From: Chlamydiota bacterium | GTDB taxonomy: Bacteria; Chlamydiota; Chlamydiia; Chlamydiales; Rhabdochlamydiaceae | DNA: 64,000 nucleotides | Assembly: GCA_021772335.1 (NCBI GenBank) | Contig: JAJFMD010000007.1 | Coordinates: 248,001-312,000, forward strand | Direction of reading: 5' to 3' | Part shown: positions 34,867 to 37,022 of the stretch, in pieces | How positions within the stretch are numbered: position 1 is the stretch's first letter | How the letters are laid out: each line of letters opens with the position of its first letter | Program-made: the position numbers and the translations under genes | The notes under the pieces: model-generated | Told to the model about the DNA's origin: nothing | Database searches by the model: none | The model's input: only the letters and a program-made list of their open reading frames with translations

Positions 34867-35267
34867 AAGCCCTACCTTTAATTATGGCATTACATCTTCC
34901 TTTAGCAGCACAAGTTAACAGCAACTTAATACCTAAAAATGAAGATCAGCCCAAAGCTGAAATGATGCAAGAACAAGCTGCTATCAAAGCAATGATCAGC
35001 TCGGATAAAAATGCCAAAAGCGTGATTACAATCCCTGTTGCTGATCGCGCAATGGACTACAAGCAAGCATTTGACAACCTAAGAAAAGAAAGACGTGCCA
35101 ACAAGGTGAATCTCGTGATGAGCAATGGAGAACTAGTTTCAAATGTTACAGAAATGACTCTTACGGCAAATAACACACTATTTCTTATCAGACAAACATT
35201 GGCAACCGGATCTCACTACATGGTTGTACCCGTTGAAAATATCGGCGGTATGCAATATCAGCCATGA
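34863..35267 (+). CDS. Small exported protein of unknown function between mnmG and lplA
   Basis: 134 residues. The N-terminus MKALPLIMALHLPLAAQVNSN looks like a signal peptide with cleavage near AAQ. A Gln/Glu-rich helix follows, then a compact part with RRANKVNLVMSNGELVSNVTEMTLTANNTLFLIRQT. No family recognised. It overlaps both neighbours by 4 bp (ATGA at both ends), so its translation is tightly coupled to a tRNA-modifying and a lipoate-attaching enzyme, although an exported product is hard to connect with either. Confidence 0.75.
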   Translation: MKALPLIMALHLPLAAQVNSNLIPKNEDQPKAEMMQEQAAIKAMISSDKNAKSVITIPVADRAMDYKQAFDNLRKERRANKVNLVMSNGELVSNVTEMTLTANNTLFLIRQTLATGSHYMVVPVENIGGMQYQP

Positions 35268-35989
35268 AGCTCAATTTCCTAGAGCTAAAAAATTACTCGA
35301 TTCTTGAGCAGCTGCAAATCGAAGAGGCTCTTCTTCGTCTTGATAAACGCAACTGGGTTATTGTCAATCAAGGATCAACTAAACGCTCTATTGTGATGGG
35401 AATCTCCTCAAAACCTGAGGAGCACATCAATCTTGGAAAAGCATCTCAAGACCAAATCCCCTTAATCAAACGTTTTAGCGGAGGAGGCACTGTCATTGTC
35501 GATGACGATACGCTCTTCATTACTCTAATCATTCAAAAAGAACACTCTCCCTGCACTCCTTTTCCTGAAAAAATTATGCGTTGGCTAGAAGCTCTATTTT
35601 CTCCTGCCTTCGATATACCCCAATTTGCTCTCTACCAAAACGATTTCGTTATTGGCGATCAAAAATGTGGTGGCAATGCGCAATATATACGCAAAGATAG
35701 TTGGCTACACCACGTCTCATTTCTATGGGATTATAAACAAGATTCGATGGATTATCTCCTCATGCCACCTAAAATGCCCAACTATCGCGCAAAACGCACA
35801 CATGATGATTTCCTCTGCAAACTGTGCGACTATGCCCATTCAAAGCCCCACCTCATCGAAAAACTGAAAAGAGAACTAGCTAAACGCTACACTCTTCAAA
35901 CTCAAGATCTCGATACGATCCTTCCATTACTGAAACAACCACATCGTCGTGCTACAACACAGCTCGAATTTGACTTAAGTCAGATGTAA
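35264..35989 (+). CDS. lplA: Lipoate-protein ligase A family protein
   Basis: 241 residues, short single-domain form. The ligase core is visible: NWVIVNQGSTKRSIVMG near 30, the lipoate-binding RFSGGGTVIVDDDTLF near 73-88, the catalytic Lys in IGDQKCGGNAQ near 132 and SWLHHVSFLWD. It attaches lipoate to E2 subunits of 2-oxoacid dehydrogenases, possibly scavenging host lipoate; an octanoyltransferase role is an alternative. The stop codon (TAA at 35987-35989) lies inside copy 2 of the dispersed palindrome, which therefore supplies the final Gln-Met codons. Confidence 0.88.
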   Translation: MKLNFLELKNYSILEQLQIEEALLRLDKRNWVIVNQGSTKRSIVMGISSKPEEHINLGKASQDQIPLIKRFSGGGTVIVDDDTLFITLIIQKEHSPCTPFPEKIMRWLEALFSPAFDIPQFALYQNDFVIGDQKCGGNAQYIRKDSWLHHVSFLWDYKQDSMDYLLMPPKMPNYRAKRTHDDFLCKLCDYAHSKPHLIEKLKRELAKRYTLQTQDLDTILPLLKQPHRRATTQLEFDLSQM

Positions 35990-36003
35990 AGCTGTTTTAC
36001 ATC
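35983..36003. repeat. Dispersed palindromic repeat, copy 2 (inverted loop)
   Basis: Arms GATGTAAA and TTTACATC around GCTGT, the reverse complement of the ACAGC loop in copies 1 and 3. The pairing extends to CA/TG outside, giving a 10-bp perfect stem over 35981-36005. It contains the lplA stop codon. No T-run follows. Confidence 0.8.
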
Positions 36004-36080
36004 TGCATAACGTATTGAATATTCTAAGATTGTGCTAAAAAAACTTTTTTATGTAGAAGCATAAAAAACTTGATCTTTAG

Positions 36081-36099
36081 AAAAAAACTGCCGTATGGG
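36081..36099 (-). terminator. 3' arm plus U-run ending the structured RNA
   Basis: CCCATACGGCAG followed by seven T on the minus strand. Stem partner at 36225-36236. The stem is long-range rather than local, which is unusual for a classical terminator, so termination here is an inference. Confidence 0.4.
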
Positions 36100-36240
36100 G
36101 TTAGATCGCTTCGTCTTTAACCTGATATATACAGGTGGTGCCGTTCCCCAACTACCAAAACTGATAGCGGCGTTATGGCTCCCTAATCGAAAATACGTCA
36201 AAGAGAAATTGCTGACCTAGGTATCCCATACAGCAGCAAG
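36081..36240 (-). ncRNA. Candidate ~160-nt structured RNA, 6S-like architecture
   Basis: Read on the minus strand, the 5' part CTGCTGTATGGG (36236-36225) pairs with the 3' part CCCATACGGCAG (36099-36088), about 11 of 12 positions, closing a single long-range stem. Inside, hairpins ACCTG/CAGGT (loop TATATAT) and GGTAGT/ACCACC are visible, separated by unpaired stretches. The 3' arm is followed directly by seven T (36087-36081) and the 5' end lies 7 nt from a good -10 box. Length, closed ends and internal bubble fit 6S RNA, but I cannot match a 6S consensus sequence. tmRNA, RNase P RNA and SRP RNA are rejected because their signatures are absent. Confidence 0.5.
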
Positions 36241-36246
36241 TCATCT

Positions 36247-36275
36247 ATGATAGCTTAAGACTTTGTATCGGGCAA
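36247..36275 (-). promoter_or_regulatory. Promoter of the candidate structured RNA
   Basis: On the minus strand, TTGCCC (36275-36270), a 17-bp spacer and TATCAT (36252-36247). It lies over the last codons of sdhB, so the RNA would have its own start independent of the sdh operon. Confidence 0.5.
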
Positions 36276-37022
36276 ATGTTTCCAATCTGAAATAGCTTGA
36301 CGAGTCGCTTGGGCGCCAATCACGGCGATCGACTCGGTTAAAGGAATATTTTTAGGACACACTTGGACACAATTTTGCGCATTGCCACAATCTGCGATAC
36401 CCCCTTTTTGTAAGAGAGGGCGCAGTCTTTTATGCTTTTGCAAGGCGCCAACAGGATGAGCATTGAAAAGACGGGCTTGAGAAATCGCCGCAGGGCCAAT
36501 GAATTCCGATTTGGGGTTGACTTGAGGACACGCCTCTGTGCAACATCCGCAGGTCATACAGGTCGAGAGAATGTAGAGAGATTCTTGGAGATTAGGACTG
36601 ATTTTCGGTCCATAGCCGCGGTCGAAAGAATCATCGCAGTCAATCCAAGCATTCACCTTTTTTAAATTTTCAAACATGCGATCACGGTTGACGATGAGAT
36701 CGCGAACAAGGGGAAATTTCGTTAAGGGAGCTACTGTAATTGTGTCACTTCCTGTTTGTTCGAGATACGTTGCAATAAGAGCTGTGCACGCCTGACGCGG
36801 ACGACCATTCACAAGCATTGAACACGACCCACATACTTCTTCTAAACATCCTTGTTCCCAAACAACAGGAGCAACCCGTTTTTCTTGACGATTAACGGGC
36901 TTTTTTTGAATCTCCATTAATGCTGAATTAACATTGAGATAAGGAAGTAAGGGAAGCTTGAACTCCTCCCAAAACTGATTACCTTTCTTGCCACGTAAAA
37001 CTTTCAAAAAAAATGTGCGCAT
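36255..37022 (-). CDS. sdhB: Succinate dehydrogenase iron-sulfur subunit
   Basis: 255 residues. The 2Fe-2S ligands are in EVCGSCSMLVNG, with the fourth Cys in RQAC near 77. The 4Fe-4S and 3Fe-4S clusters use CMTCGCCTEACP near 157 and CGNAQNCVQVCPKNIP near 213-228. It transfers electrons from FAD in SdhA to the membrane quinone. Last gene of the minus-strand tatD-sdhC-sdhA-sdhB group, 11 bp after sdhA. Its 3' end overlaps the promoter of the candidate RNA. Confidence 0.96.
   Translation of the reverse strand: MRTFFLKVLRGKKGNQFWEEFKLPLLPYLNVNSALMEIQKKPVNRQEKRVAPVVWEQGCLEEVCGSCSMLVNGRPRQACTALIATYLEQTGSDTITVAPLTKFPLVRDLIVNRDRMFENLKKVNAWIDCDDSFDRGYGPKISPNLQESLYILSTCMTCGCCTEACPQVNPKSEFIGPAAISQARLFNAHPVGALQKHKRLRPLLQKGGIADCGNAQNCVQVCPKNIPLTESIAVIGAQATRQAISDWKHLPDTKS

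Follow-up and report, generated by a model that had tools for sequence, protein, structure and literature searches.

6S RNA imitates a promoter and restrains RNA polymerase, and is a general brake on bacterial transcription. In Escherichia coli, the sequence CCGAU of this RNA is where the pRNA starts. In 6S RNAs of the E. coli type, pRNA synthesis unwinds the helix P2 beside the start, a hairpin forms in the 3' strand of the central bubble, and the polymerase is freed (PMC8876501). Other RNAs that bind RNA polymerase are also known (PMC11077062), such as the abundant Ms1/CoRP RNAs of actinobacteria, which associate with the polymerase, Ms1 binding the core enzyme. Within the chlamydiae, the abundant CPn0332 RNA of Chlamydia pneumoniae was tested as a 6S-like binder of the sigma28 polymerase, apparently without association (PMC3333780). 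Among the titles, abstracts and passages searched, we came across no description of 6S RNA from chlamydiae, and a tentative candidate in the distribution survey of Wehner 2014 is not excluded. 6S RNA appears to have gone unrecognised in Chlamydiota, where Rfam calls none in 234 genomes.

Here, we describe an RNA gene on the minus strand of a 64,000-nucleotide stretch of a Rhabdochlamydiaceae genome (hereafter the window), which is very probably the 6S RNA gene (ssrS) of this chlamydial lineage. This reading is based on structure, covariation, spread across the phylum and resemblance to 6S RNA, all of which are computed; polymerase binding, expression and the pRNA are inferred only. The gene lies in the 265 bp between the end of sdhB (36255) and the end of a convergent lplA-like gene (35989), a gap in which, as the original prediction had stated, no credible protein gene was found. 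Two inverted repeats lie close to the RNA. An AT-rich 12-bp repeat (AACTTTTTTATG / CATAAAAAACTT, 36042-36071) is located between the RNA and the lplA-like gene, and could be a second or two-way terminator. A perfect 10-bp repeat (CAGATGTAAA / TTTACATCTG, 35981-36005) spans the stop of the lplA-like gene and is without a T run.

The promoter that had been proposed from the sequence, TTGCCC-17-TATCAT overlapping the end of sdhB, is found at 36275-36247 on the minus strand. On its own it is weak evidence, because the stretch contains four promoter-like sites, compared with 1.2 +/- 1.2 in shuffled sequences. Upstream of the homologues described below, a -10-like box with at least five of six matches occurs in 47% of cases, as against 16% after shuffling, and a perfect TATAAT in 20%, as against 2% in mononucleotide shuffles. 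A start 6-9 nt past the -10 box would fall at about 36238-36241. The start motif of the original prediction is present, but not 7 nt past the -10 box, since its first base (36236) lies 10 nt past it. At the other end, the seven T expected after the 3' arm are in place, and a run of at least four T follows the RNA in 88 of 100 homologues. These are the features of a free-standing RNA with its own promoter and 3' end, established at the level of sequence only, in the absence of transcript data. The RNA would be about 160 nt long in the window, and the family median is about 174 nt.

The window RNA folds at -55.8 kcal/mol, compared with -39.5 +/- 4.4 kcal/mol for shuffled sequences (z -3.7), and none of 200 shuffles did as well. 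The paired arms that had been noticed 125 nt apart (36225-36236 and 36088-36099; 12 nt each, 92% complementary) lengthen to a closing stem of 13 pairs, whose 3' arm, together with the U run, may double as a terminator. The P2 duplex of the window RNA has an energy of -9.0 kcal/mol. Beside it, U36195 is the counterpart of the U in the conserved (A)ACGAUA. The two outer pairs of the 3' bubble hairpin take G36121 and U36120, which are also the first bases of P2, and hence the hairpin and P2 are alternatives. The window RNA departs slightly from the family consensus in having CGAUA without GA and CCC without one C. Its structure exceeds chance already in this single sequence, and the relatives put it beyond reasonable doubt. 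The features are listed in Table 1.

Table 1. Positions of the RNA, its predicted parts and its neighbours in the window
Feature	Position	Strand	Basis or remark
sdhB	36255..37022	-	upstream neighbour, same strand as RNA
-35 box TTGCCC	36270..36275	-	promoter scan; within end of sdhB
-10 box TATCAT	36247..36252	-	promoter scan; -10-like boxes also upstream of homologues
Probable 6S-type RNA gene	36081..36240	-	predicted ends: 5' at about 36238-36241, 3' within T run
Closing stem, 5' arm GCUGCUGUAUGGG	36225..36237	-	fold; homologous helices covary
P2 (downstream helix), 5' strand UUUCUCUUUGAC, predicted pRNA template	36197..36208	-	MFE fold, duplex energy, covariation
Predicted pRNA start (template U)	36195	-	inferred from position beside P2 and 6S mechanism in PMC8876501
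Central bubble, 5' strand, A/U-rich, ends UUA	36184..36194	-	alignment
Upper (internal) stem, 5' side GGGAGCC	36177..36183	-	alignment, covariation
Upper stem, 3' side GGCACC	36137..36142	-	alignment; family consensus GGACCC has one C more
3' bubble hairpin ACCUG/CAGGU	36120..36136	-	sequence; helix covaries
P2, 3' strand GUUAAAGACGAAG	36109..36121	-	MFE fold, duplex energy, covariation
Closing stem, 3' arm CCCAUACGGCAGU	36087..36099	-	fold; covariation
U7 run, predicted termination	36081..36087	-	sequence; T runs also in homologues
lplA-like gene (lipoate-protein ligase type)	35264..35989	+	convergent neighbour of RNA

Comparison with Rfam points to 6S, but below the curated threshold and not in every member tested. 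The 6S model RF00013 matches 36084-36239 from end to end (model positions 1-187) with 15.5 bits, compared with a cut-off of 46.4; this is its sole match in the whole genome, and 6S is the only family that the RNA resembles over its full length. In 234 Chlamydiota genomes, the same model gave five matches (L003-L007), none of which reaches the cut-off. The best (L003; 29.9 bits, E 2.8e-4) adjoins lplA, another (L004) sits between homologues of sdhB and lplA, a third (L005) lies behind sdhB, and a fourth (L006) is intergenic; these four are homologues of the window RNA. Thus, a weak model picked, in other genomes, the same place that had been chosen here from the sequence alone. The weakest match (L007, 16.1 bits) is false and lies inside a coding sequence. 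In a set of 40 genomes, the best RF00013 match (G085, 24.1 bits) is again at the locus given by the family model; the others (at most 16 bits) are elsewhere and look like noise. Several members of the family match 6S over the full length, but with 15-30 bits only. The cut-off of 46.4 bits is not itself a defining feature, since only four of the eight control genomes that give a match pass it. Three members detected by the family model R1 had been missed by Rfam. Among all 4227 Rfam families, 6S was the top match for two of them (L017, 24.7 bits, E 0.002; L026, 21.5 bits, E 0.011), and no 6S match was obtained for the third (L013). Matches to SNORD11B and to various miRNA families are due to chance or to simple hairpins. 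In L003, a long near-perfect hairpin of about 110 nt (1318-1427), located between the lplA homologue and the RNA, draws Rfam miRNA models and has the appearance of a mobile element or a repeat.

A DNA similarity search in 29 relatives returned no match because the sequence diverges too fast, and covariance models were needed. The model R1, built from the window RNA and L003-L006, gave about 106 strong matches in the 234 genomes, and the model R2, built from 100 aligned R1 matches, detects the RNA in 120 of the 234 at E <= 0.05 and in 116 at E <= 1e-10, in essentially one copy per genome. About half of the 234 genomes have no R2 match, several members of the window's own family among them. Of 80 named chlamydial lplA loci, which overlap with the genomes already scanned, 28 give an R2 match; among these 28 are loci from a Simkaniaceae chromosome (L152), Candidatus Protochlamydia (L180), Candidatus Rhabdochlamydia (L191) and Parachlamydiaceae (L195). 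Four records titled Aerophobetes, Verrucomicrobia or Acidobacteria (L203, L160, L200, L170) carry a chlamydial lplA, and their titles look wrong; the RNA is present in the first three. One genome (G102) has, besides its strong match, a second and weaker one (L126, 1982-2139, 31.9 bits) that contains CAACGAUAAUUUUUGAUUAG, possibly a degenerate second copy or a chance match. In another genome (G029, L132), the lplA-like reading frame contains one in-frame TAA.

The homologues provide the evidence for the structure. In the alignment of 100 sequences fitted to the model, 33 of 37 pairs, in six helices, have changed on both sides, with 762 compensatory cells versus 251 after shuffling and a score of 0.53 versus 0.21; structures slid along the alignment reach at most 0.11. 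Compensatory changes in the closing stem, the lack of which would have counted against the prediction, are present in the relatives. Since the main alignment was fitted to the model, two alignments made with MAFFT only were also folded. Double changes were observed in 20 of 37 pairs with five sequences and in 17 of 28 pairs with 18 sequences of one family, and the closing and upper stems recur in both de novo folds. Hence the closing stem, central bubble and internal stem that characterise 6S RNA are all found, with covariation. In the first RNAalifold structure, the region beside the bubble was left unpaired; P2 was spotted by eye, by comparing the consensus strands with the bubble-closing stem of Rfam, and was tested afterwards. 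The consensus GCUCAUCAAC faces GUUGAUggaGC, and this pairing is the counterpart of the 6S helix P2. Its six inner pairs are present in 80.8% of cells, and at one of these positions C-G (62) is replaced by U-A (24); the four outer pairs are present in only 57.5%, partly owing to alignment shifts. Own-strand duplexes have an energy of -6.90 kcal/mol, compared with -5.75 +/- 0.19 kcal/mol for permuted strands. P2 is immediately followed by CGAUA (G 73%, A 91%, U 74%, A 86%); AAC and then CGAUA are conserved beside the helix. In the consensus, the 3' bubble strand is able to fold into a hairpin (ACCU...AGGU). The two outer pairs of this hairpin take up the first G and the first U of P2, so that hairpin and helix compete. 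A P2 beside the pRNA start with a competing 3' bubble hairpin is the arrangement of E. coli-type 6S RNA. The upper stem is bounded by GGG/CCC in the family.

The chlamydial RNA thus resembles E. coli 6S RNA (SsrS, RF00013) in its length, closing stem, upper stem and single copy per genome, as well as in P2 beside the pRNA start (predicted for the chlamydial RNA) with CGAU/CCGAU, the 5' bubble strand rich in A and U, a 3' side with ACCCACCU and the 3' bubble hairpin competing with P2. It differs in a sequence too diverged to reach the Rfam cut-off and in its neighbours, which are sdhB and lplA/mnmG rather than ygfA/fau. With Bacillus subtilis 6S-1 RNA it has in common the general rod, the central bubble and, by inference, P2 unwinding (PMC8876501), but B. 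subtilis 6S-1 uses a central bubble collapse helix. Judged by pairing only, the chlamydial RNA looks closer to the E. coli type, in which the opening of P2 frees the 3' bubble hairpin.

The position of the gene raises the question of whether the RNA is merely a 3' element of the sdh operon, such as a terminator, an attenuator or an mRNA-stability structure. This is hardly tenable. sdhB does immediately precede the RNA, in the same orientation, in 36 of 100 copies (24 with sdhB only and 12 that also have lplA), but a further 17 have only the convergent lplA downstream and 47 adjoin neither, so the RNA is not always behind sdhB and is not part of sdh. -10 boxes are, moreover, enriched immediately upstream of the RNA, and several genomes keep sdhB and lplA without it. 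In six such loci (L127, L147, L149, L153, L171, L211), lplA and sdhB abut, with 11-21 bp between them, which can be read as clean loss or as an RNA-free state. Absence from close relatives had been named as a possible refutation; the region is indeed missing from some, apparently as clean losses with abutting genes, but others keep it in place. In being gained, moved or lost as a whole, the RNA behaves like an independent gene.

Two further explanations accept a conserved RNA and dispute its identity. It might be a chlamydial RNA that binds RNA polymerase without being of 6S descent, doing the same job from a separate origin, as the actinobacterial Ms1/CoRP RNAs do. In favour of such an origin, which we consider unlikely, every Rfam score is below the cut-off, R2 does not bridge to E. 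coli ssrS, and precedents exist; against it, 6S is repeatedly the top family, aligned over the full length with the same stems, and the layout of P2, pRNA site and 3' bubble hairpin agrees with 6S in detail. Still less probable is a conserved structured RNA with a different function, such as that of a base-pairing sRNA or of a sponge for a protein. No functional data exist to rule this out, and long-range stems alone are no proof of 6S, but the conserved unpaired stretches are those of the 6S bubble, and no family other than 6S comes up repeatedly in the Rfam comparisons. The 6S reading itself must be weighed against the lack of any member at the Rfam cut-off, the one in three tested members without a 6S match, the failure of R2 to find E. 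coli ssrS, the half or so of the genomes without a match and the weaker pairing in the outer half of P2. The suggestion that the RNA is either the lineage's own 6S RNA or a novel one is supported by its resemblance to RF00013, by a phylum-wide family model and by covariation.

If the RNA is 6S RNA, the following course of events may be proposed. An RNA of about 160 nt would be transcribed from its own promoter, as inferred from the sites described above, and would fold into a rod consisting of the closing stem, P2, the central bubble and the upper stem. By analogy with 6S biology, the bubble would mimic an open promoter and hold the polymerase with its primary sigma factor under nutrient scarcity. 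Once nucleotides return, the polymerase is predicted to begin copying the 5' bubble strand at the U of CGAU and to proceed into P2, yielding a pRNA with the consensus 5'-AUCGUUGAUGAGC (ACGUCAAAGAG in the window) and the expected start letters AUCGUUGA. Its synthesis would open P2, allowing the competing 3' bubble hairpin to form and the enzyme to be released. The natural stage for such a cycle in chlamydiae would presumably be the passage between elementary and reticulate bodies. A role in the chlamydial intracellular cycle is plausible because the 6S RNAs of Legionella and Coxiella rise inside host cells (PMC4228915).

One family (f7), comprising 22 Chlamydia-like genomes of 1.0-1.4 Mb, gave no match above 22.7 bits with the family model. 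The best hit (G042) is false: it falls within the gene for an ABC-transporter permease, and its fold is not more stable than those of shuffled sequences (z 0.18). With this genome size and the gene order mnmG-lplA-(5 bp)-ndk-ruvA-ruvC in G042, f7 is taken as Chlamydiaceae. Absence here means undetected by the family model, and a strongly diverged 6S RNA cannot be excluded. CPn0332 is an RNA of C. pneumoniae, and Chlamydia-like genomes show no match to the present RNA family.

Chlamydiae alternate between dormant infectious and growing forms, and it is an open question how they bring transcription as a whole to a halt and set it going again. We tentatively suggest, as a conjecture more doubtful than secure, that 6S RNA is ancestral to Chlamydiota and unrecognised there, that it stops primary-sigma transcription in elementary bodies until pRNA synthesis frees the polymerase once the host supplies nucleotides, and that the Chlamydia-like family has lost it and switches otherwise. 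A conserved 6S gene, carried by about half of the sequenced species, could help to explain how these intracellular bacteria change from one form to the other. The Chlamydia-like family, which appears to have lost the gene, provides a natural comparison, and such a gene with its predicted pRNA start makes the question of a global switch directly testable in amoeba-grown relatives.
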